Of a stretch of 64,000 nt of DNA, positions 1,568 through 57,542 are shown piece by piece. Within the stretch, counting starts at the first letter, position 1; the number at the start of each line of letters is the position of its first letter. The translations under genes and the position numbers were made by a program. Source of the stretch: Pseudomonadota bacterium (GTDB lineage Bacteria > Verrucomicrobiota > Verrucomicrobiia > Limisphaerales > SXTU01); NCBI GenBank assembly GCA_009924135.1, contig RFSE01000001.1:68518-132517 (forward strand), in the 5' to 3' direction. The notes under the pieces were generated by a model. The model made no database searches. It was not told the origin of the DNA and worked only from the letters and a program-made list of their open reading frames with translations.

Positions 1568-2875
1568 TCAGGGTATTTTGCTCCCCAGACACCACAAATG
1601 CCGGTGCGTGCGAATGAAAATGTTGCCATCGCTGATGGCGTGGGTGGAGTTCGCCAGTTCGCCGTCGAGCGGGTTTACCCGTACGAGTTCGAACTTCGGA
1701 CTGGCCTTGAGGACGATGGTTTCGCCGGATTGGTTGAGGCAGAGCAGGTGACCGTCCACCAGCACCATGGAGGACCATGAGTCGCCTTTTTTGCCCGTGC
1801 CTTTCACGCGCTCCTGCCAGCGGGATTCGCCAGTTTGAAGGTTCAGACATTCGGCGATGCCTTCGGTGTTAAGGACGTAACAGTGGCCATCGGCGATGAC
1901 CCCGGTGCCAAGGCGGTTCTTGGTGCGGACGGTTTGCCAGAGGCGATGCGAGCCGGTCACGTCGCCGGTTCCGCCGGTTTTGACCGCCAGGCTGGTGCCG
2001 AAGTAGCCACCCATCGCCACGAGCACGCCGTCGCCGGCTACGGGGGAGCAATAGATGAGCTCGTTCAATCCATCACAATGCCAGAGGGCGCGCCCCGTGC
2101 GCGGATCGAAGGCGCGGACAAACTGCGGAAAGGCTTGGATGAGCTCATCGCGCGGCCCACTGCGGGTGATGATGGGGGTGGCGAAAGTGCCGATGATCCC
2201 ACCGCGTTCATTGCCCTTGAAGCCGTCCGTGCGCGGACGTAATTCCGGCCGGGGCTCCTCGTATTCCCAGAGCGTCTTGCCGGACTGCTTGTCCAGACCG
2301 ATGAGCCGGGCGTTCAATCCGGGGCCGAAGTAGAGCACGCAGACATCACCATGAATGACCGGGGAGGCGGCGTAGGCCCATTCGTGTGATTGCGGGCCGA
2401 GTTCGCGGCGCCAAAGTTCCTTGCCGTCCATGTCCCAACAGAACAAGCCGGCCGAACCGAAGAAGGCAATGACGCGTCCTCCATCCGTAACCGGGGAGGC
2501 GGCGCAAAAGGGGTTCTTACCGTAACGCTTCTCGGCCTGCTTCCAGGTGGTGCCGGCCTTCCAGAGCAGCTTGCCGTCCCGGCGGTCATAGCACATCACG
2601 GTGCGGCCGCCTTCCTGTTCGAAGGCCTGCGTGAGGAATACCTTGCTGCCCCAGACGACGGGCGAAGAATCACCCGGCTCGGGAAGCGCGTTTTTCCAAC
2701 GGACATGCTCGGTGGCGCTCCATTGCAAGGGCACATTTTTTTCGGTTGTGGAACCGTCTCCGTTGGGGCCGCGCCACGAGGGCCAGTTGGCCGCCGGGAG
2801 CGCGGTGGCGAGCGCGGCGAGGCAGCCGGGGATCATGGCCGCAAGCCATTGCCGGCGCGGGTGCAGTGATGACAT
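1568..2875 (-). CDS. PQQ-binding-like beta-propeller repeat protein
   Basis: ORF track 1568..2962; internal start MSSLHPRRQWLAAMIPG gives a signal peptide; NWPSWRGPNGDG, GKLLWKAG and SGKTLWEYE propeller motifs. Confidence 0.85.
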   Translation of the reverse strand: MSSLHPRRQWLAAMIPGCLAALATALPAANWPSWRGPNGDGSTTEKNVPLQWSATEHVRWKNALPEPGDSSPVVWGSKVFLTQAFEQEGGRTVMCYDRRDGKLLWKAGTTWKQAEKRYGKNPFCAASPVTDGGRVIAFFGSAGLFCWDMDGKELWRRELGPQSHEWAYAASPVIHGDVCVLYFGPGLNARLIGLDKQSGKTLWEYEEPRPELRPRTDGFKGNERGGIIGTFATPIITRSGPRDELIQAFPQFVRAFDPRTGRALWHCDGLNELIYCSPVAGDGVLVAMGGYFGTSLAVKTGGTGDVTGSHRLWQTVRTKNRLGTGVIADGHCYVLNTEGIAECLNLQTGESRWQERVKGTGKKGDSWSSMVLVDGHLLCLNQSGETIVLKASPKFELVRVNPLDGELANSTHAISDGNIFIRTHRHLWCLGSKIP

Positions 2876-2985
2876 GGCCCGAGTATAGAAACGGGGGACG
2901 GCCCGCCAAGCGGAGATTCCCTTTTCCGATGCGCCGGTGCTCCGCTTGCCTTTTGGAGGCATTTCCCTATCGTCCGCCGAACCGG

Positions 2986-5787
2986 ATGCCGAGCCTAGCC
3001 GATAAGATCGAAGCCAGCGCTGCCAAACGCCTGACCCTGCCAGCAGGGCGTTTGCCAGCCCGCGAACTGCCGCGCTTCAAACAGTTCCTCAAAGTCGAAA
3101 CGGCGCGACTCAAGATGTTGCATCGCGCCGGGGGCGGCGGCCGCGAGGTCTGCCAGGCGCGGGCGGTGGTGTTGGACGCGCTGCACCGGCACATCCTGGA
3201 GGCGCTCGTCAACACGTTGCCGGAGGTTGAACGCCGCGGACTGCCGCGCTACGCGCTCATCGCCATCGGCGGTTACGGGCGGGGCGAACTGAATCCGCAT
3301 AGTGACATCGACATTCTCCTGCTGCACACCGGGGACACGGCGGCGGCGGCGCGCGGGCGCGTGCATCCGTTCATCAAGCTGCTCACCGAGCCGGACGGAT
3401 TACTTTACACGCTGTTTGATCTGGGGCTCAAGGTGGGATACTCGGTCCGCACGCTGGACGATTGCGTGACGGCCGCCAACGAGAACATCCAGTCCAAGAC
3501 CTCGCTCATCGAGGCGCGGTTGCTGTGCGGAGATGCGGAACTGTTCCGCGAAATGCAAGGGATCGTGATCGCGCGGTGCGTGCGGGGGCACGAGGAGCCG
3601 TACATCGCGGCGCGGTTGGCCGACCAGGAATCGCGTCGCCAGAAATATGGCAACACGCCCCTGATGCAGGAGCCGAACATCAAGAACGGCTGCGGGGGAT
3701 TGCGCGACTACCAGAATCTCCTGTGGATGGCGTTCTTTACCAAGGACCGGCCGCGTAATCTCGCTGATCTCCAGGCAAAGGATTTCATCAGCGACGCGGA
3801 GCGCCGCCAGCTGGATGCGGCGTATGATTTTCTCCTGCGGGCGCGCAATGAGCTGCACTACCTGACTAACCGCGCCGGCGACGTGCTGACCAAGAGCGTC
3901 CAGCCGGCCATCGCCTACAGCCTCGGCTACACGGACCGCTCGCCCAGCCGCCGGCTGGAGCGCTTCATGCGTGATTACTATCTCCATGCGCGCAACATCG
4001 ACATGATCACGCGCACGGTGGAGCGGCGGCTGGCGCTGCTGCACAAACCGCCGGCGCGGATGCCCTTCCTCTCCAAGTTCCTGCCCTCGCGCCGCAAGCA
4101 ACCGGAACCGGTCGTTGACGGTTTCCGCCTGGTTGAGGGCGAACTTTTGCACCAGTCGGCCAGCGTATTCCGCGACGATCCGTGCCGCATGATGCGGGTG
4201 TTTCTTTACGCCCAGCAACGTGGCGCGCGGCTCCATCCCGACACCGCCAAGCTGCTGCGCAACGAGCTGCGGTTGGTGGATTCAAAGTTCCTGGCCAACG
4301 AGCATGTCCACGAAAGCTTTCGCGAGATCCTCAGCCAGCGCGGGAACGTCGCGCCCGCCCTCCGGGCCATGCACGAGGTGGATTTCCTCGGCAAGTACCT
4401 GCCGGAGTTCGGCAAACTTACCTGCCTGGTCCAGCATGAGTTCTTCCATATCTACACGGCGGACGAGCACACGCTGATGTGCGTCCAAAAGCTGGATGAC
4501 ATCTGGGCCGGGCGCATCCCCAACGCGGCCCCGTACCAGGAGGTGTTTCAGAAGATCGAGCGCCCCTTCATCCTGTATTTGTCCCTGTTGCTCCATGACT
4601 CCGGCAAGGCCATGCAGGGCCGCCACCACGAAGTGGACAGCGCGCACTTTGCTGACCGGGTGGCCCGCCGCCTCCGCCTCGACGGGGCCACCACGCACGT
4701 CCTGCGCCTGCTGGTGGAGCATCACCTGGCCATCATTCAGATCTCGCAACGGCGCGATCTGGATGATCCGGAGGTGGTCCGGTATTTCGCCGCGCTGGTG
4801 CAGGCCCCGGACACTCTGAACAAGCTCGTTCTCCACACGCTGGCGGACTCGCTCGGGACCAGCGACAAGCTGTGGAATGGTTTCAAGGACATGCTGTTGT
4901 GGACGCTCTACCGCAAGACGCTGGCGGAGCTGACGGGCACCACCACCTTCATCAGGGCCGAGGAGAAGCAGCGGGAATTGCTGCTGCAGGAGGTGGTACG
5001 CCAGCTTCCCCGTGAACTCCAGCTGGGGGAGGCGCAGGCGCATTTCGGCACCCTGCCACCGCGTTACTTCCTCATCCACAACGCGGCGGACATCGTTGGT
5101 GACCTTGCACTCACCAACCGCTTCATGCGGAATCTCCTCAGCAATGATCCAGAGGTTTCCCTTGCTCCGGCGATTGAATGGAAGGACGAGCCCGACCGGG
5201 GCTGTTCGCGGGTGAAGGTTTGCACCTGGGACCGGGCCGGCCTCTTCAGCAAGCTCGCCGGTTCGTTCACCTCTGCCGGTCTGAACATCTTCAGTGCACA
5301 GATTTTTACCCGCAGCGACCGCGTGGTCCTCGACACCTTCGATGTCACCAGCGCCCGGTCCGGCGTGCTGGCCACAAAGGAGGAGAAGGAGAAGTTCGAC
5401 CAACTCCTGGCCAAGGCGCTGGTGGGGCACCTGGATTTCGACCCGCTCATCGCCAAGCAGAAGGTGGTGAACCCGCTCTACCAGTCACTCGAAGGCGAGC
5501 GCATTGCGACCGAGATTGTCTTCGACAACGAATCCTCGAACCGTTGCACGGTTGTTGACGTGCAGACGGAGGATCGCGTCGGCCTGCTCTATGCCATGTC
5601 CCAGACCCTGAGCGAACTGGGGCTGGACATCTCTGTGGCCAAGATCAGCACGGAGAAGGGGGCTGCGATGGACAGCTTCTACGTGACCGAATTGACCGGA
5701 GAAAAGATCGTGTCCCAACACCGGAAGAACCAGATCGAAGGCCGCCTCCGCCGGGCCTTGCTGAATCTGGACCAGCGCGCCAAGTAA
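2986..5787 (+). CDS. glnD: [protein-PII] uridylyltransferase / uridylyl-removing enzyme
   Basis: In-frame ATG at 2986 (MPSLADKIEAS); NT motif GGYGRGELNPHSDIDILLLH; HD motif LLHDSGKAMQGRHHEVDS; two C-terminal ACT-like domains. Confidence 0.92.
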   Translation: MPSLADKIEASAAKRLTLPAGRLPARELPRFKQFLKVETARLKMLHRAGGGGREVCQARAVVLDALHRHILEALVNTLPEVERRGLPRYALIAIGGYGRGELNPHSDIDILLLHTGDTAAAARGRVHPFIKLLTEPDGLLYTLFDLGLKVGYSVRTLDDCVTAANENIQSKTSLIEARLLCGDAELFREMQGIVIARCVRGHEEPYIAARLADQESRRQKYGNTPLMQEPNIKNGCGGLRDYQNLLWMAFFTKDRPRNLADLQAKDFISDAERRQLDAAYDFLLRARNELHYLTNRAGDVLTKSVQPAIAYSLGYTDRSPSRRLERFMRDYYLHARNIDMITRTVERRLALLHKPPARMPFLSKFLPSRRKQPEPVVDGFRLVEGELLHQSASVFRDDPCRMMRVFLYAQQRGARLHPDTAKLLRNELRLVDSKFLANEHVHESFREILSQRGNVAPALRAMHEVDFLGKYLPEFGKLTCLVQHEFFHIYTADEHTLMCVQKLDDIWAGRIPNAAPYQEVFQKIERPFILYLSLLLHDSGKAMQGRHHEVDSAHFADRVARRLRLDGATTHVLRLLVEHHLAIIQISQRRDLDDPEVVRYFAALVQAPDTLNKLVLHTLADSLGTSDKLWNGFKDMLLWTLYRKTLAELTGTTTFIRAEEKQRELLLQEVVRQLPRELQLGEAQAHFGTLPPRYFLIHNAADIVGDLALTNRFMRNLLSNDPEVSLAPAIEWKDEPDRGCSRVKVCTWDRAGLFSKLAGSFTSAGLNIFSAQIFTRSDRVVLDTFDVTSARSGVLATKEEKEKFDQLLAKALVGHLDFDPLIAKQKVVNPLYQSLEGERIATEIVFDNESSNRCTVVDVQTEDRVGLLYAMSQTLSELGLDISVAKISTEKGAAMDSFYVTELTGEKIVSQHRKNQIEGRLRRALLNLDQRAK

Positions 5788-12199: not shown

Positions 12200-12340
12200 T
12201 AAGCCACTGATGAACACAGATGAAACTCAGATGGGGAAGGACATTGAATCAGGAAGGCAGGAAGGCAGGAAAAATGGCCGAGTTCCCAAGGCATTCTTCG
12301 CAATCTGTGTGCCATCTGTGTTTCATCTGTGGCCAAAAAC
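12200..12340. repeat. Inverted ~11-bp CACAGATGAAA-type repeat element with nested AGGAAGGC 8-bp repeats
   Basis: Left gccactgatgaacacagatgaaactcagatg; right catctgtgtttcatctgtggcc; nested aggaaggc-aggaaggc-aggaa between the arms. Confidence 0.85.
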
Positions 12341-15093: not shown

Positions 15094-15176
15094 ATTATCA
15101 GGAAAGCAGGAAGGCAGGAAGGAATCTTGAAGGCAGATTCGTCGATTCTTCCTGCATTCCTGAATTCCTGATTAAT
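15094..15176. repeat. Inverted pair of 8-bp tandem repeats (TCAGGAAN word)
   Basis: Left attatcaggaaagcaggaaggcaggaaggaatc; right gattcttcctgcattcctgaattcctgattaat. Confidence 0.88.
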
Positions 15177-30287: not shown

Positions 30288-31415
30288 ATGCTGACATCTG
30301 CCACCCGCCATCGCGATTTCCCCGCGCTGGATTCGATGACGTATTTGAACACGGCTGCCGAGAGCATTCCGCCGCTCTGCGTGGGCGAGGCATTGCAAAC
30401 CTACTGGCACGACAAACTGCGCGGCATGAAGGGGCGCGATTTTCACTTCAAGCAGGTCGAGGATTGTCGCGAAGTGGCGGCGCGGATGATCGGTTTGAAG
30501 CCGACGGAAGTCTCCTTCTGCTCGTGCAGCTCGGAGGCTTACAATCTCCTGGCCACCGCTCTGAACCTCCAGCCGGCCGATGAGGTTGTGGTCACGAACC
30601 TCGACTTTCCGGCCGGCGCGACGCCCTGGCTCACGGCGGTGACTCGGCCGCAAACGCGCGTGTGGAAGGCGGCGGGCGGCGAGCTGCGCGTGGATGATTT
30701 GCCGCCGTTGCTGAACGCGCACACGCAGTTGGTGCAGGTCTCCCTCGTGAGTTTTTACAACGGGCATCGCCTCGCGTGGGCCCCGTTCCGTAATGCCGTG
30801 CGGCGGCTGGCCCCGAACGCACTCATCTCCGTGGACGTGACGCAGGCGCTTGGGCGGGTGGAACTGGATTGTTTCGACGCCGATTGCGTCATCAGCAGCA
30901 CGCACAAGTGGTCGCTGGGTGTGCACGGCGGCTGTATCGTGGGCATTCCGGAGCGTGCGGCGGCGCGGCTGACGACGCATGCGGGTGGCTGGTTCCATCT
31001 GCGCAATGCCTTCGATGCCGACCGTTTTCAACGGGCGGAGTCGAAGGCCGGGGCCGCGAGTTTCTCGGTGGGCATGCCAAATTTCGCTGCGATTTACGCG
31101 CTGAACGCGGCGTTGCGTTACGTGGAAGGCGTCGGGGTGGCGGCCATCGCGCGTCATGCGGACCCGCTGGTGGCGCAGGTCCACGCCGGTTTGCGCGAGC
31201 TGGGCTTGCAGCCGATGGCTCCCGCTCAGCCCGCGAATCCGACCGGCATTCTGGCTTTTCAACACCCGAACACCGCCGGCATCCAGGCTGTCCTGGAGCG
31301 TGAGAACATCCACGTGATGCACCATGCCGGGCGCATCCGCATCGCGGTGCACGGGTACAACACGGCGGAGGACATTGACCGGCTGCTGGCCGGGTTGGCG
31401 GCGGCTGTGAAGTAA
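30288..31415 (+). CDS. Class V aminotransferase-fold PLP enzyme
   Basis: 375 aa; DSMTYLNTAAESIPPL, SVDVTQALGRVELDCFDADCVISSTHKWSLGVHGG (PLP-lysine region). Confidence 0.88.
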   Translation: MLTSATRHRDFPALDSMTYLNTAAESIPPLCVGEALQTYWHDKLRGMKGRDFHFKQVEDCREVAARMIGLKPTEVSFCSCSSEAYNLLATALNLQPADEVVVTNLDFPAGATPWLTAVTRPQTRVWKAAGGELRVDDLPPLLNAHTQLVQVSLVSFYNGHRLAWAPFRNAVRRLAPNALISVDVTQALGRVELDCFDADCVISSTHKWSLGVHGGCIVGIPERAAARLTTHAGGWFHLRNAFDADRFQRAESKAGAASFSVGMPNFAAIYALNAALRYVEGVGVAAIARHADPLVAQVHAGLRELGLQPMAPAQPANPTGILAFQHPNTAGIQAVLERENIHVMHHAGRIRIAVHGYNTAEDIDRLLAGLAAAVK

Positions 31416-31486
31416 CAAGTGTTCAGTGTTCAGTAACCAGTGTTCAGTGGTTGGCGTATCCGCATACTGAACACTGAATACTGAAT
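31411..31486. repeat. Inverted pair of heptamer tandem repeats (AGTGTTC / ACTGAAC word)
   Basis: Left arm agtaaca-agtgttc-agtgttc-agtaacc-agtgttc (31411-31445); right arm actgaac-actgaat-actgaat (31466-31486). The left arm overlaps the TAA stop (31413-31415) of the upstream gene. Confidence 0.9.
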
Positions 31487-31545
31487 ACTTTCCCCCTTTT
31501 TTTCCGGCGCGACAGTTTTCACCGATCCTGCTATTCACTGCCCGC

Positions 31546-40090: not shown

Positions 40091-41284
40091 ATGATGAAAT
40101 CTCTCTCCACGCACTGCGGCGTTCTGGCCGCGCTTACCCTGGCCACCGGTGTCCTCCTAACGGGTTGCAAGAAACCAGACGAGTCGGCTTCCGGGATTGG
40201 CAAGCCGGGTGAAGGGAAGGCAGGCGACCTCATCAAGGTAGGCGAGTTCGCCTCGCTCACCGGCAAGGAAGCCACCTTCGGCCAGTCGTCGCATAAAGGC
40301 ACGCTCCTGGCCATCGAGGAACTCAACGCGGCCGGCGGCGTGCTGGGCCGGAAGTTTGACCTCATCACTGAGGACACGCAGTCCAAACAGGGCGAGTCCG
40401 CCGCCGTGGTGCGCAAGCTGGTTTCGCGGGACAAGGCCATCGCGATCCTCGGGGAAGTCGCCTCGGGACGTTCGCTCGAGGCCGCCCCCATCTGCCAGAA
40501 CGCCAAGGTGCCGATGATTTCCCCCAGCTCGACGAATCCCAAGGTCACCGAGGTCGGGGACTTCGTCTTCCGCGTGTGTTTCATTGATCCCTTCCAAGGC
40601 ACGGTAATGGCGCTCTTTGCCAAGAACACTCTCAAGGCCAAGAACGTCGCGGTGCTGACCGATGCCGCCGCGCCCTATAGCGTCGGTTTAGCCACGTTTT
40701 TCAAGGAGAAGTTTGTCGCTGACGGCGGAAAGATTTCCGTGGAGCAGAAGTTCAGCAGCGGCGACAAGGATTTCAAGGCCCAGCTCACCGCGATCAAGGC
40801 CGTGAATCCCGATGCGATCTTTGCCCCGTGTTACTACACGGAGGCTGGCCTGATCGCGCAACAGGCACGGCAACTCGGCATCAACCTGCCCATCTTCGGC
40901 GGCGACGGCTGGGAGGCTCCGGAGCTGGTCACCATCGGCGGCAAGGCGATGGACGGCACTTTCTACTCCACGCACTACTCGCCTGAGGACAAGACCGAGA
41001 TGGTTCAGACCTTTGTGAAGAAGTTTAAGGCGCGCTGGAACAACGAAGTGCCCGACGCCATGGCCGCGCTGGGCTATGATTCCGCCCTGGTCCTCGCCGA
41101 CGCCATCAAGCGCGCCGGTGGCACGGATGGCCAGAAGCTTCGCGACGCCATCGCCGCCACCAAGGACTTCGTGGGCGTCACCGGCAAGACCACGCTCGAT
41201 GACAAACGCAACGCCACGAAGCCGGCCGTCATCATCGAGGTGAAAGACGGGAAGTTTGTGTACAAGGAAACGGTGAATCCGTAG
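40091..41284 (+). CDS. livK: Branched-chain amino-acid-type ABC transporter substrate-binding protein
   Basis: ORF 40016..41284, internal start MMKSLSTHCGVLAALTLATGVLLTGCKK (lipobox); IKVGEFASLTGKEATFGQSSHKGTLLAIEELNAAGG typical of Leu/Ile/Val-binding proteins. Confidence 0.9.
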   Translation: MMKSLSTHCGVLAALTLATGVLLTGCKKPDESASGIGKPGEGKAGDLIKVGEFASLTGKEATFGQSSHKGTLLAIEELNAAGGVLGRKFDLITEDTQSKQGESAAVVRKLVSRDKAIAILGEVASGRSLEAAPICQNAKVPMISPSSTNPKVTEVGDFVFRVCFIDPFQGTVMALFAKNTLKAKNVAVLTDAAAPYSVGLATFFKEKFVADGGKISVEQKFSSGDKDFKAQLTAIKAVNPDAIFAPCYYTEAGLIAQQARQLGINLPIFGGDGWEAPELVTIGGKAMDGTFYSTHYSPEDKTEMVQTFVKKFKARWNNEVPDAMAALGYDSALVLADAIKRAGGTDGQKLRDAIAATKDFVGVTGKTTLDDKRNATKPAVIIEVKDGKFVYKETVNP

Positions 41285-41760
41285 GGGAGAGTTGATAGGT
41301 TGGGAGTTGATGGTTGATAGACTACTGCTACCTCGGGCGCGACATGTTCAATTTTGAGAAACTTGACGTTTGGCAGCGGGCAAATGAGCTTGCTGACCTT
41401 GTTTACAAGGTGACCAGAACGTTTTCCGAAGACGAACGGTTCGGGCTGACCAACCAGATGCGTCGGGCAGCGGTGTCTGTATCCTCCAATATAGCGGAGG
41501 GTAGCGCCCGGTCGTCGCGCAACGACAATGCTCGTTTCCTAGAAATCGCCACCGGTTCTTTGTTTGAAGTCGTAGCTCAGCGCTTCATCGGTCGCCGCCA
41601 AGGTTTTCTGACCGAACCTGATTTCAAACCCTCTACGCAAGTGCCGATGAACTGGGCCGGATGCTCAGTGGCCTCCGCCGCTCCCTCTTGGAATCTGCGC
41701 CCCGTAGTTAAAGGGCATCTATCAACCATCAACTCCCCAACTATCAACTTCCTCCTCCCC
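41284..41760. mobile_element. Putative mobile cassette: IVP-like gene bracketed by heptamer-built terminal inverted repeats
   Basis: Left arm ggggagagttgataggttgggagttgatggttgatag (41284-41320); right arm ctatcaaccatcaactccccaactatcaacttcctcctcccc (41719-41760) is its imperfect reverse complement, with 18 nt identical at the inner end. Inserted between livK and livH. Confidence 0.7.
41344..41711 (+). pseudogene. Four-helix-bundle protein (23S rRNA intervening-sequence protein family), frameshifted near the C-terminus
   Basis: MFNFEKLDVWQRANELADLVYKVTRTFSEDERFGLTNQMRRAAVSVSSNIAEGSARSSRNDNARFLEIATGSLFE is family-typical. At the CCC run 41629-41631, restoring one C gives ...DFKPLYASADELGRMLSGLRRSLLESAPRS-stop (TAA 41709-41711), the expected C-terminus. 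Confidence 0.85.
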
Positions 41761-42689
41761 TGACCGAATTCCTCCAACAGCTCATTAACGGCCTCTCGCT
41801 TGGCGCGATTTACGCGCTCATTGCCCTGGGCTACACCATGGTTTACGGCGTGCTGCGGTTCATCAACTTCGCGCATAGCGATGTGTTCATGGTTGGATCG
41901 TTCGTCGGGTATTACATCGCAAACCCTCCCGGGTTGTTTCAAAAGCTGTTGCCACACTTCCCCAAGCTTCCGCTGGAGTCCGTTGGAGGTGGTTTGTTTA
42001 CCCTGGCATTCGCCATGGTGGTTTGCGCGGTCCTTGGAGTCACGATTGAGCGGCTGGCTTACCGGCCGCTGCGCAACCGCTCCAAGCTTACGGTGCTTAT
42101 CACGGCCATCGGCGTTTCGCTGCTGTTGGAAAACACCGGGCAATTCATGTTCGGCGCGGCACCGAAGGCGTTTCCCACCCTCTTTCCCGTCCACACGTTC
42201 AACGTGGGCGGACTGGTCATTGGCTCCAACCAGATTGTCGTTCTGGTCGTTGCACTCGCACTGCTGGGTGCGTTGCAATACATCGTGCTGCGGACCAAGG
42301 TCGGCACCGCCATGCGCGCCGTGTCGTTCAATCCCCAGGCCGCTTCCCTCGTCGGCATCAACAACGACCGCATCATCTCCTTCACCTTCGCCCTCGGCTC
42401 GGCGCTCGCCGCGGCGGGTGGCATTCTCTACTCGTTGAACTATCAGGCCATCGATCCCCTCATGGGCGTTCTGCCCGGACTGAAAGCCTTTGTCGCGGCG
42501 GTGCTCGGGGGCATCGGAAACATCCCCGGCGCGGCGCTGGGCGGGCTGCTGCTGGGCGTGGTCGAAACCTTCGTGAACGGCAGCCGCTTCAGCACCTTCA
42601 CCGATGCCATTGCCTTTGCCATCCTGATCGCCATCCTGCTCTTCCGCCCGGCCGGCTTGCTGGGGAAGATGCAGGTCGAAAAGGTTTAG
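41760..42689 (+). CDS. livH: Branched-chain amino-acid ABC transporter permease, apparent CTG start
   Basis: ORF track starts at ATG 41838, but the in-frame upstream sequence encodes (L)TEFLQQLINGLSLGAIYALIALGYTMVYGVLRFINFAHSD, the conserved LivH N-terminus. No ATG/GTG/TTG between the in-frame stop 41709-41711 and 41838. Confidence 0.85.
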   Translation: MTEFLQQLINGLSLGAIYALIALGYTMVYGVLRFINFAHSDVFMVGSFVGYYIANPPGLFQKLLPHFPKLPLESVGGGLFTLAFAMVVCAVLGVTIERLAYRPLRNRSKLTVLITAIGVSLLLENTGQFMFGAAPKAFPTLFPVHTFNVGGLVIGSNQIVVLVVALALLGALQYIVLRTKVGTAMRAVSFNPQAASLVGINNDRIISFTFALGSALAAAGGILYSLNYQAIDPLMGVLPGLKAFVAAVLGGIGNIPGAALGGLLLGVVETFVNGSRFSTFTDAIAFAILIAILLFRPAGLLGKMQVEKV

Positions 42690-42859
42690 CCACAGATTCA
42701 CACAGATTGAACACAGATAATCAAAGCGGGCAAGATTGGCAGCGGGCAGAAGCAATGATAGCCCAGCGTGCTTTGCGGGCCATGCCTGCCTTCCGACACA
42801 TCAACTGTTCCCCATCTGTGTATCATCTGTGTTTCATCTGTGTTTCATCTGTGGCTAAA
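42686..42859. repeat. Inverted pair of ~11-bp tandem repeats (CACAGATGAAA word) between livH and livM
   Basis: Left tttagccacagattcacacagattgaacacagata; right catctgtgtatcatctgtgtttcatctgtgtttcatctgtggctaaa. The left arm overlaps the livH stop TAG (42687-42689). Confidence 0.9.
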
Positions 42860-43883: not shown

Positions 43884-44036
43884 GGAGCGCGGACGCCCAC
43901 GTCCGCAGCCAAGCAGCGATCGCCACCGTCTGTGTGAAAACTCACCTGCGGCTGGCTGACATTGCTACCCGATGGGACAATCGAGTTTTCACCCTGCCTG
44001 GTCGCCACCGACTGCGGACGTGGGCGTCCGCGCTCC
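43884..44036. repeat. 153-bp MITE-like palindromic element with perfect 25-bp terminal inverted repeats
   Basis: ggagcgcggacgcccacgtccgcag (43884-43908) and its exact reverse complement ctgcggacgtgggcgtccgcgctcc (44012-44036). Confidence 0.85.
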
Positions 44037-54651: not shown

Positions 54652-57542
54652 CGCCCCGATTTTTCATCGCTTGCTGGCTCGCCTTGACTGCGGGGGCGGT
54701 CGCAACTGACTCAAAGACCAACAACGACGCTGTTCCGCATTGGTCCTACCAACCGGTCGTCCGTCCCGCGTTGCCGACAGTCAAAAACTCCGCGTGGGGT
54801 CGCAACGACCTGGACCGGTTCATTCTGGCGAAGCTGGAAGGGCAGGGGCTTCAGCCATCACCCGCAGCCGATCCGCGCACTTTGATTCGCCGGCTTTACT
54901 TCGACCTGATCGGGCTTCCGCCAACACCTGAAGAGGTCGAGGCGTTTGCTAAAGAATGCGGAATGGCCAAGGGGGTGCGACCGACGGATTCCGCATTCCG
55001 CATTCCGCATTCCGCAGTGGAACGGCTCGTGGACAAACTGCTCGCCAGTCCGCACTACGGCGAACGCTGGGCGCGCCACTGGCTGGACATCGCCCACTAT
55101 GCGGACACTCACGGTTTCGAACGTGACCAGCTCCGGCCCAATGCCTGGCGCTACCGCGACTACGTCATCGGCGCGCTCAATTCCGACAAGCCGTATGACC
55201 AGTTCCTCCGCGAACAAATCGCTGGCGACGTACTCGTCGAAGGGTCCAAAGTCCAAAGCCCAAAGTCCAAAGTCACCGACGCCGCTCAGACCAATGGAAC
55301 CGGCTCTCAACTCTCAACTTTCAACTCTCAACTCCTTTCCGCCACCGGTTTTCTCGCCGCCGGCCCATGGGATTACGTCGGTCAGATCGAGACCAAGAGC
55401 GATGTCCTGCGTCGTCAGGCCCGGGCCGATGATTTGGATGACATCGTCACACAGGTCCTCACTTCCACGATGGGTGTGACCATCAACTGTGCCCGTTGCC
55501 ACGATCACAAACTGGACCCCATTTCGCAGCGGGAATATTACAGCCTTTGGTCGGTCTTTGCCGGCGTGAAGCGGGGCGAGCGTGAGTTGGACCCCGCAGC
55601 CACGACCCGCCGCGAAACCGAACGCAAGCAACTCCAGGCGCGCCTCCGGGAGGTCGCCGCAGAGCTTGGCCGCCTCACCGGTGCGGGCCTCGACCTCGCG
55701 GACATGGTGGGTGGCGGCAACGGTCGTGGCACGGGCGTCAAGGGTGCCGGGCTTGATCTCCGTAATGGCAACGTGGTGAAGGACAAGCTCGGTTACCACC
55801 GCGACATCCAGTTGAACCGTTTGCAAAAAGCGGAGTGGCCAGACGCAAACACACCGAAATTCGTACAGTGGATTTTCGTGCCGGATGGCAAATCCCCTGT
55901 GCCAGTCGCCAGCCAGGTGATCGTCAGCAATCTTCCGCCGACATCGGGTTACGCCTGGGATGCGATTCGCAATGGTCCACTGAACGCACAGGTTTCCACC
56001 AAACTCGATGGAGTGGACTACGCGGCGGAAGGACACTCGCTGCTCGGATTGCACGCCAACGCGGGCATCACCTTGAATCTGGTCGAAATCCGCAAGGCCA
56101 GTGGCTTTTCCAAGTTGCGTCTTACGGCCATGCTCGGTTTTGGTGCGGCCCCCGGCGCCGCTTCGAGTCGTGCTGATTTCAGCGTCTTTGCCGGTCGGGA
56201 GCTGGTCTTCCAAAAACTCAAACTGCGCAAGGACGATTCGGCCCGCGTGGATGTAGTAGTTCCTGACACTGCTGAGACACTCACGCTGGTCGCTACCGAT
56301 GGAGGCGACGGCATCGGCAGCGATCTGCTTTTCCTGGGTGATGCGCGTCTCTCCATGGATGCGGATTTGCAAAAGCTCGCAGATGCCGATCGCGCGCGCA
56401 TCGAGTCGTTGCGGGCCGAGGAGAAGCAGTTGAAGGCCGCGCTCGCTGCGAAGACCGAAGGCGACAAGGTCTATGCCATCAACAGCACTGAGCCACCAGT
56501 AGTGAAAGTGCTCCGCCGGGGCAATCCTGAGGATGCTCTGGAAGAAGTCGGTCCTGGCGTCCTTGCCTGCGTTAAGCATATCTCAGCTGACTTCACCGGG
56601 GCCAAGTCTGAAGGGGACCGCCGCCTCGCGCTGGCCGATTGGATTGTGCAACCAGCCAACCCGCTCACCCGCCGCGTTTTGGTCAACCGCCTCTGGCACC
56701 ATCACTTCGGGGTCGGTCTGGTGGACACGCCCAGCGATTTTGGCAAGGGCGGTGGCCGGCCTTCGCATCCCGAATTGCTGGACTGGCTGGCCGAGGAATT
56801 TCTCGCCAGCGGTTGGTCTGTAAAGGCGATGCATCGGCGCATTTGCACGAGCGCGACTTACGGACAGTGTTCAGTGTTCAGTGTTCAGTATTCTGATGCC
56901 AGTGGGGTATCAACCGATGTTTCACGAAGGTCCGGCCCCTCACTGAACACTGAAAACTGGAAACTGAATACTTTCCTTGCCCAACGCATTGATTCCGCCA
57001 ACCGCCTCCTCTGGCGTCAAAACCCCCGGCGTCTCGACGCCGAATCCACGCGGGACTCCGTGCTCGCCATCAGCGGCAAATTGAACTTTGCCGCCGCCGG
57101 CCCGGGTTACCGCGACTTCAAGTACACCGAAGCGTACGCACCGATTTACCAGTACATCGCTGCCGACACACCCGAACTGTGGCGACGCAGCATCTACCGT
57201 TTCGTCGTGCGCACCACGCCGCAGCAGTTCATGACCACGCTGGATTGCCCGAACCCGGCGAATCTTACTCCGGCGCGCACCAGTACGACCACGGCCCTGC
57301 AGGCGCTCGCGTTGTCGAACAACGAGTTCATGCTGCAACAAGCCCGTTATCTCGCCGCCCGCATCGAACGCGAAGCCGGTGCCGACCCTGCTGCCCAGGT
57401 GGTCCGCGCCTTTCAGCTCTCATTCGCGCGTTCGCCGAGCCAGCTCGAATTGTCCGCCGCGCGTGACCTCGTGCGCACGGAAAGCGTCTTTGCCTTATGC
57501 CGCATGCTGCTTAATGCCAATGAATTCGTATATGTTGACTAG
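54648..57542 (+). CDS. PSD1/DUF1549-DUF1553 family protein with several in-frame repeat-element insertions
   Basis: Start MTPRFFIACWLALTAG; LIRRLYFDLIGLPPTPEEVEAF; ERWARHWLDIAHYADTHGFE; TMGVTINCARCHDHKLDPI; TRRVLVNRLWHHHFGVGLVDTPSDFGKGG. Confidence 0.9.
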   Translation: MTPRFFIACWLALTAGAVATDSKTNNDAVPHWSYQPVVRPALPTVKNSAWGRNDLDRFILAKLEGQGLQPSPAADPRTLIRRLYFDLIGLPPTPEEVEAFAKECGMAKGVRPTDSAFRIPHSAVERLVDKLLASPHYGERWARHWLDIAHYADTHGFERDQLRPNAWRYRDYVIGALNSDKPYDQFLREQIAGDVLVEGSKVQSPKSKVTDAAQTNGTGSQLSTFNSQLLSATGFLAAGPWDYVGQIETKSDVLRRQARADDLDDIVTQVLTSTMGVTINCARCHDHKLDPISQREYYSLWSVFAGVKRGERELDPAATTRRETERKQLQARLREVAAELGRLTGAGLDLADMVGGGNGRGTGVKGAGLDLRNGNVVKDKLGYHRDIQLNRLQKAEWPDANTPKFVQWIFVPDGKSPVPVASQVIVSNLPPTSGYAWDAIRNGPLNAQVSTKLDGVDYAAEGHSLLGLHANAGITLNLVEIRKASGFSKLRLTAMLGFGAAPGAASSRADFSVFAGRELVFQKLKLRKDDSARVDVVVPDTAETLTLVATDGGDGIGSDLLFLGDARLSMDADLQKLADADRARIESLRAEEKQLKAALAAKTEGDKVYAINSTEPPVVKVLRRGNPEDALEEVGPGVLACVKHISADFTGAKSEGDRRLALADWIVQPANPLTRRVLVNRLWHHHFGVGLVDTPSDFGKGGGRPSHPELLDWLAEEFLASGWSVKAMHRRICTSATYGQCSVFSVQYSDASGVSTDVSRRSGPSLNTENWKLNTFLAQRIDSANRLLWRQNPRRLDAESTRDSVLAISGKLNFAAAGPGYRDFKYTEAYAPIYQYIAADTPELWRRSIYRFVVRTTPQQFMTTLDCPNPANLTPARTSTTTALQALALSNNEFMLQQARYLAARIEREAGADPAAQVVRAFQLSFARSPSQLELSAARDLVRTESVFALCRMLLNANEFVYVD
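54954..55019. repeat. ATTCCGC heptamer x4 with short inverted arm, inside a CDS
   Basis: Four perfect attccgc copies at 54988-55015; inverted gaatgcggaatgg at 54954-54966. Confidence 0.88.
55244..55334. repeat. Two adjacent heptamer arrays (TCCAAAG x4 and CTCTCAA x4) inside a CDS
   Basis: tccaaag-tccaaag-cccaaag-tccaaag and ctctcaa-ctctcaa-ctttcaa-ctctcaa. Confidence 0.88.
56866..56969. repeat. Inverted pair of AGTGTTC/ACTGAAC heptamer arrays inside a CDS
   Basis: agtgttc x3 + agtattc (56866-56893); actgaac-actgaaa-actggaa-actgaat (56942-56969). Confidence 0.9.

Follow-up and report, generated by a model that had tools for sequence, protein, structure and literature searches.

Heptamer-repeat hairpins around IVP genes follow the protein lineage and may belong to a mobile hairpin family

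Why does a gene for a four-helix-bundle protein stand between livK and livH, enclosed by inverted arrays of heptamers? We asked this of a 64,000-nucleotide stretch of contig RFSE01000001.1 (assembly GCA_009924135.1; positions 68,518 to 132,517), which is the window referred to below. Its livK-livH interval of 475 nt holds an IVP/S23 gene inside a hairpin that fills the whole gap. We think it probable that IVP serves a REPIN-like mobile hairpin family as its dedicated recognition protein, with the IVP-bearing copy as the master copy. The two arms lie 396 nt apart and are 87% complementary over 39 nt. As the first-pass annotation of this DNA had described, they are built from the units GTTGATA/GTTGGGA/GTTGATG/GTTGATA. 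The identical stretch that it put at 18 nt is slightly longer, since the inner 20 nt (TCTATCAACCATCAACTCCC) are the same in both arms. It had also read the arms as bounding the entire interval. The left arm begins at the end of the livK stop codon (41282-41284), and the right arm ends 3 nt short of livH, which apparently starts with CTG (41760-41762); in relatives whose gap is empty, ATG stands at that place. The window contains 7 inverted pairs that reach a score of 15 (0 to 1 in Markov-shuffled copies), and the livK-livH pair scores highest in the 64 kb. It reaches 27; pairing its left arm with the right flanks of the other IVP genes in the genome gave 9.0 on average and 11 at most. The RNA fold z of the hairpin is -6.1.

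The IVP frame starts with ATG at 41344 and is interrupted near 41626-41629 (AAA versus AAAA in the orthologues of genomes G008 and G009), and the data fit either a real frameshift or an assembly error. The in-frame profile match is limited to positions 1 to 91, and the window fragment exceeds the curated cutoffs of the IVP/S23 family (PF05635, TIGR02436), with 111 bits versus 33.8 and 98.9 versus 24. Where an IVP hairpin fills the gap (window position 41760 and locus L060), the ATG of livH is lost, and an apparent CTG or ATC start comes from the end of the arm.

The same design surrounds nearly all other IVP genes of the source genome (6.7 Mb; about 90% complete), as the first-pass annotation would have it. 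When we compared the flanks of all 16 IVP genes, 14 had arms matching their own partner (scores of 13.5 to 53.5), one had a weak pair (10.5), and one was cut by a contig end; the mean for cross pairs was 9.2, and 13 marked their 99th percentile. The repeat differs with each copy (GTCCAAA, GATTGCC, TGAAAAG, ATTTACG, AGCTCCA, etc.), and by their sequence the neighboring genes look like operon partners (e.g., livG/livF, sdhA/sdhB, argB/argD, metK/ahcY, and cysD/cysN). We then considered 199 distinct IVP elements from the same genome, 40 relatives, 80 named loci of many phyla, and 8 plasmid loci; the named loci were gathered by a contig scan with alignment A2, which is narrower than A1, and the genomes were mostly drafts or metagenome-assembled genomes (MAGs). 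Own arms scored at least 13.5 in 83% of the 196 loci with both flanks, compared with 3.2% of cross pairs and 2.5% of random segments. The arms point inward and are periodic: at lags of 7 and 14, autocorrelation was 0.62 and 0.58, respectively, compared with 0.27 for the control, and the best lag was 7 in 120 and 8 in 35 of 163 cases. The 5' arm is poor in C (G, 36%; A, 30%; T, 25%; C, 10%). Hairpin arms of this kind occur at IVP loci of Cyanobacteria, Bacteroidota, Planctomycetota, Pseudomonadota, and candidate phyla; at the sensitivity used, IVP was not found in phage records. The IVP locus of Azospirillum plasmid p2, which we take to be a 23S rRNA intervening sequence (recognized from its sequence and not by a model), also has arms built from 7-nt units.

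Arm sequence follows the protein lineage. In pairs without shared flanks, the sharing of arm 5-mers rose with protein identity from 0.07 (identity of <0.45) through 0.11, 0.18 (0.55 to 0.65), and 0.29 (0.65 to 0.75) to 0.39 (0.75 to 0.9), and it was never above 0.02 in the flipped orientation. At protein identities of 0.55 to 0.75, four-fold sites are near saturation (0.31 to 0.32 identical), and arm similarity was 0.33 to 0.45, compared with 0.23 to 0.26 for shuffled arms. A permutation test of the arm-protein match gave 0/999, a count that is only indicative because the sequences are related; the comparison with four-fold sites is the stronger control. One pair (L019/L087; protein identity of 1.0 and zero shared arm k-mers) was set aside as a probable alignment artifact. 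Residues Q34, R37, S41, N45, E48, and E71 are invariant in the broad IVP alignment A1. In the window's genus, IVP is under strong purifying selection (nonsynonymous-to-synonymous divergence ratio of about 0.02), and a 30-nt stretch of the right arm is unchanged between the source genome (G000) and G008 and G009, although the synonymous divergence (dS) of IVP is about 1.9 to 2.0. Because arms and protein covary beyond the saturation of synonymous sites, and thus beyond neutral expectation, the arm is apparently selected together with the protein, as expected if IVP recognizes it directly. The suggestion that the bundle binds its own arms thereby gains strong, if indirect, support.

In Xanthomonadales, dispersed hairpin families match the arms of the genome's own IVP. 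The gene is present in 158 of 399 genomes of this order, mostly in one or two copies. Under a looser scoring, 97.5% of 40 IVP loci (mostly Xanthomonadales) had arms scoring at least 15, compared with 17% of cross pairs; carA-carB and accB-accC are the chief addresses of these loci. We counted exact double-heptamers of three heptamers in 19 genomes, a small matrix. GGGATTC was found 69, 56, 116, and 151 times in G318, G308, G319, and G364; at accB-accC, each of these four has an IVP whose arms are of the GGGATTC type. GGGACCG was found 291, 17, and 25 times in G056, G317, and G364, where an IVP with GGGACCG arms lies at carA-carB. AGGGCTG was found 73 times in G094, whose IVP has AGGGCTG arms, and in no other genome. 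The eight genomes listed without IVP had 0 of the tested double-heptamers, and where IVP has arms of another type, the heptamer in question was likewise at zero, except for G056 and one match in G317. Close array pairs in G318 were convergent in 11 cases versus 1, and the IVP copy is laid out alike. In Xanthomonas campestris, 186 GGGAATC-type arrays with 70 convergent pairs, mainly intergenic, have been described, and no partner gene was named (PMC4692102). By sequence, the IVP of the solved structure 2gsc (XCC0516) is a close relative of those that stand at accB-accC between GGGATTC arms.

Comparisons of presence, absence, and turnover suggest that IVP hairpins are mobile. The predicted empty livK-livH sites exist: the interval is filled in G000, G007, G008, G009, and G010, as well as in G035 (another family), whereas five congeners and some 13 further genomes of the order have an empty site (gap of 3 to 78 nt). 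We considered whether the livK-livH copy had simply been inherited vertically. This does not fit G010, which has a different IVP allele with GTTGAGA arms and an IVP dS of 1.7 to 2.0 versus a livK dS of 0.2 to 0.6 (1.7 versus 0.22 against G008). With IVP diverging so far beyond livK, the copy in G010 has probably been replaced. The livH-livM gap contains at least five hairpin types among relatives and nothing in many others. Gene-free hairpins there have CACAGAT boxes in G000 and G004, CACGGAT boxes in G007 and G010, CCAATGA in G002, GCGAACT in G008 and G009, and AGCTCCA in G005 and G035; in G016, GATGCTG repeats precede an IVP gene, and G001 has one leftover box. In G003 (L048), the livK-livH gap holds an apparent toxin-antitoxin pair, read by eye, and no IVP hairpin.

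A second gene-bearing hairpin class has a similar design. The source genome carries 10 copies of PF13366 (GxxExxY; PD-(D/E)XK-like), whose nuclease-motif residues D62 and K74 are conserved at 95% or more. Arms matching their own partner were found in 79% of 38 GxxExxY loci from this genome and relatives, compared with 5.6% of cross pairs. These arms often consist of three boxes (e.g., AACCACGGAT GGACACGGAT GAACACGGAT) and form a family different from the IVP hairpins; box-type arms stand around the GxxExxY genes at L247 to L285 (e.g., CACGGATGAA).

The reading that we favor takes the livK-livH interval as one IVP-bearing copy of a hairpin element, in which imperfect heptamer repeats form the two inverted arms and the IVP gene occupies the loop. 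IVP would be a ring-forming four-helix bundle (the X. campestris homologue is pentameric [PMC4990558]) that most likely recognizes the folded arm of its own lineage, as single-stranded DNA or RNA, in a sequence- and strand-specific manner. We infer that IVP binds the arm directly and that this recognition would drive or protect the copying of cognate hairpins into new intergenic sites, with host enzymes supplying the strand chemistry. Gene-free hairpins with a matching heptamer would depend on the IVP-bearing master copy as REPINs depend on RAYT, and the intervening sequences of 23S rRNA would be copies of this element that sit in rRNA. The first-pass annotation had proposed a non-autonomous mobile cassette; its observation is confirmed, neither of the two conditions that it had named as refuting was borne out, and its interpretation is partly supported, in that mobility is suggested by presence, absence, and turnover, and "non-autonomous" is probably reversed, as the Xanthomonadales data point to the IVP-bearing hairpin as the master. 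It is also possible, and we propose it tentatively, that a widespread class of mobile elements has gone unrecognized: self-matching heptamer or octamer hairpins spread by a small helical-bundle ring protein that lacks any known transposase or reverse transcriptase (RT) domain and reads the repeat of its own arms, with rRNA intervening sequences as one niche and the nuclease-like GxxExxY hairpins as a second, independent class. If this holds, the target of IVP is the repeat around its own gene. The purpose of the S23/IVP family, which has solved structures (2gsc and 2rld) and no function, would then be explained, as would the abundance of heptameric repeats in some bacteria and the nature of 23S rRNA intervening sequences. 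Copying driven by IVP without a known transposase or RT would be a new mechanism.

The element shares features with several known systems. Like the window copy, 23S rRNA intervening sequences of Coxiella, Leptospira, and Brucella have an IVP open reading frame (ORF) in the loop of an inverted-repeat stem, and that of Coxiella has tandem GACAGAT heptamers 5' of the ORF (PMC4990558). These sequences lie inside rRNA, whereas the window copy is outside any 23S rRNA gene and has protein-coding operon genes on both sides; the Coxiella ORF is reportedly decaying and untranslated, in contrast to the purifying selection seen here. REPIN/RAYT systems (PMC3116915) likewise have dispersed intergenic inverted hairpins that match the sequence on either side of a gene present once or a few times in that genome, with lineage-specific sequences and the gene at conserved addresses. 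The match of hairpins to gene flanks is seen in Xanthomonadales except G056 and is not evident in the source genome. IVP hairpins fall outside REPIN/RAYT because IVP is not a Y1 (HUH) transposase but a four-helix bundle (PF05635; neighbors 2gsc, 2rld, and Avd); in addition, the gene is inside the hairpin, and 7- or 8-nt units in tandem make up the arms. The heptameric simple sequence repeats of Xanthomonas and Nostoc (PMC4692102) also form intergenic arrays with many convergent inverted pairs, at different genes in related species, and the TAACTGA repeats of Beggiatoaceae (PMC4679880) are intergenic heptamer arrays too, but mostly direct. Neither report links the repeats to IVP/S23. Miniature inverted-repeat transposable elements (MITEs) are similarly short, intergenic, and with or without a gene. 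Unlike MITEs, IVP hairpins have tandem-repeat arms that differ between copies of one genome. A transposase was not seen, no search having been aimed at RAYT/Y1, nor was a target duplication at the livK-livH sites compared, which included no near-identical pair. In the open-access literature, we found no paper that links the pieces assembled here; an earlier description elsewhere is possible.

Several results weigh against a mobile family served by IVP. Neither transposition nor excision has been observed, and a comparison of filled with empty livK-livH sites, none of them near-identical, showed no duplicated target. IVP contains no recognized catalytic domain. The IVP copies of the source genome are mutually old (highest identity of 0.75), the one in the window is frameshifted, and a relaxed search for the GTTGATA repeat in that genome gave 14 matches versus 12 for the control, so that a cognate relation is not evident there. 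Arms were missing at the threshold in about 17% of IVP loci, and G056 has 76 GGGATTC matches, yet its single IVP hit has GGGACCG arms. IVP is also codirectional with both neighbors in 63 of the 71 loci where the neighbors agree (versus 8), which RNA-level regulation would fit too. This is the main rival: IVP as an RNA-binding regulator, with the dispersed hairpins as its sites on operon mRNAs, governing processing (e.g., by RNase III) or downstream translation. The position of hairpins between operon genes, the purifying selection on IVP, the conserved addresses carA-carB and accB-accC, and the RNase III-mediated excision of the Coxiella 23S intervening sequence (PMC4990558) are all in keeping with it. 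A regulon would be expected to keep its targets, however, and gene-free hairpins turn over fast: the livH-livM gap of relatives has different hairpins or none, and long arrays lie at different genes in two Xanthomonas species (PMC4692102). We regard a regulatory role in place of a mobile one as unlikely, although the two could coexist.

The similar hairpins around the unrelated GxxExxY gene make a shared external machinery conceivable, in which the hairpins would be moved by another mobile system (RAYT/Y1, an insertion sequence transposase, or an integrase), with IVP as a passenger or a target of opportunity. Arm sequence follows the IVP lineage across unrelated sites, however, and the tested dispersed families have the heptamers of IVP arms and are missing from all eight genomes listed without IVP. 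A passenger would not behave in this way, and we find this account improbable. More doubtful still is an origin of the arrays in ordinary replication slippage and template switching, with IVP genes merely surviving well there. According to work cited in PMC4679880, many bacteria have heptamers as their most frequent long simple repeat, for which a polymerase footprint has been put forward; the arrays of L039 and L040 within coding sequence also lack a matching inverted partner. The zero counts described above, both in genomes without IVP and (save G056 and the single match in G317) in those whose IVP has other arms, argue against slippage, as does arm-protein matching kept past synonymous saturation. 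Finally, IVP might work with an RT as does Avd, the accessory protein of diversity-generating retroelements, machinery to which the first-pass annotation had also pointed. The folds agree (TM score of 0.75 to 0.79 for Avd; the AlphaFold model matched Avd structure 4dwl at 0.75 to 0.78, ranked after the IVP structures 2gsc and 2rld). However, RVT_1 (PF00078) had no match in the source genome at its roughly 90% completeness, and Avd profiles scored the orthologue L075 below their cutoffs (26.1 bits versus 80 and 26.4 versus 40). With no RT found, such a partner is very unlikely here despite the shared fold.

The features of the window are listed in Table 1, including gene-free hairpins beyond the liv genes.

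Table 1. Positions of the IVP hairpin, its neighbors, and gene-free hairpins in the window
Feature	Position	Strand	Remarks
livK, upstream neighbor	40091..41284	+	empty/filled site comparison with relatives
Left (5') arm	41283..41321	+	GTTGATA-type heptamers, complementary to right arm
IVP/S23 four-helix-bundle gene (PF05635, TIGR02436)	41344..41707	+	profile matches; frameshift
Right (3') arm	41718..41756	+	reverse complement of left arm; 30 nt CTATCAACCATCAACTCCCCAACTATCAAC unchanged in G008 and G009
livH, downstream neighbor	41760..42689	+	apparent CTG start
Gene-free hairpin, livH-livM gap	42692..42858		CACAGAT boxes, arm type found around GxxExxY genes; different hairpins in relatives
Gene-free heptamer hairpin	31410..31490		AGTGTTC units
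Gene-free heptamer hairpin	56865..56966		CAGTGTT units
Gene-free hairpin	12213..12331		CACAGATGA boxes, GxxExxY-type arms
Gene-free hairpin	15097..15172		GCAGGAAG boxes, resembling GxxExxY arms of L251

Just 3' of livM (43884-44036) stands a GC-rich inverted repeat of a type different from the heptamer hairpins, whose 25-nt arms match perfectly and enclose 103 nt. Elsewhere in the source genome, L037 (G000, contig C19; about 1900-4560) has dense nested heptamer arrays (GTTGATA, GTCGAGG, and GCTGACG) in both orientations around small ORFs. At L038, L039, and L040, heptamer arrays lie within protein-coding sequence (an RHS/YD-repeat-like gene in L040), some without an inverted partner. The livK of L127, from a record titled as a Klebsiella pneumoniae MAG, is about 97% identical to the verrucomicrobial livK of the window, and the label is probably wrong. 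On cyanobacterial plasmids, IVP genes with repeat arms stand inside operons of clustered regularly interspaced short palindromic repeat (CRISPR) systems, between cas6 and cas4 in L101 (1480-1848) and between cas10 and cmr3 in L103 (1483-1839).
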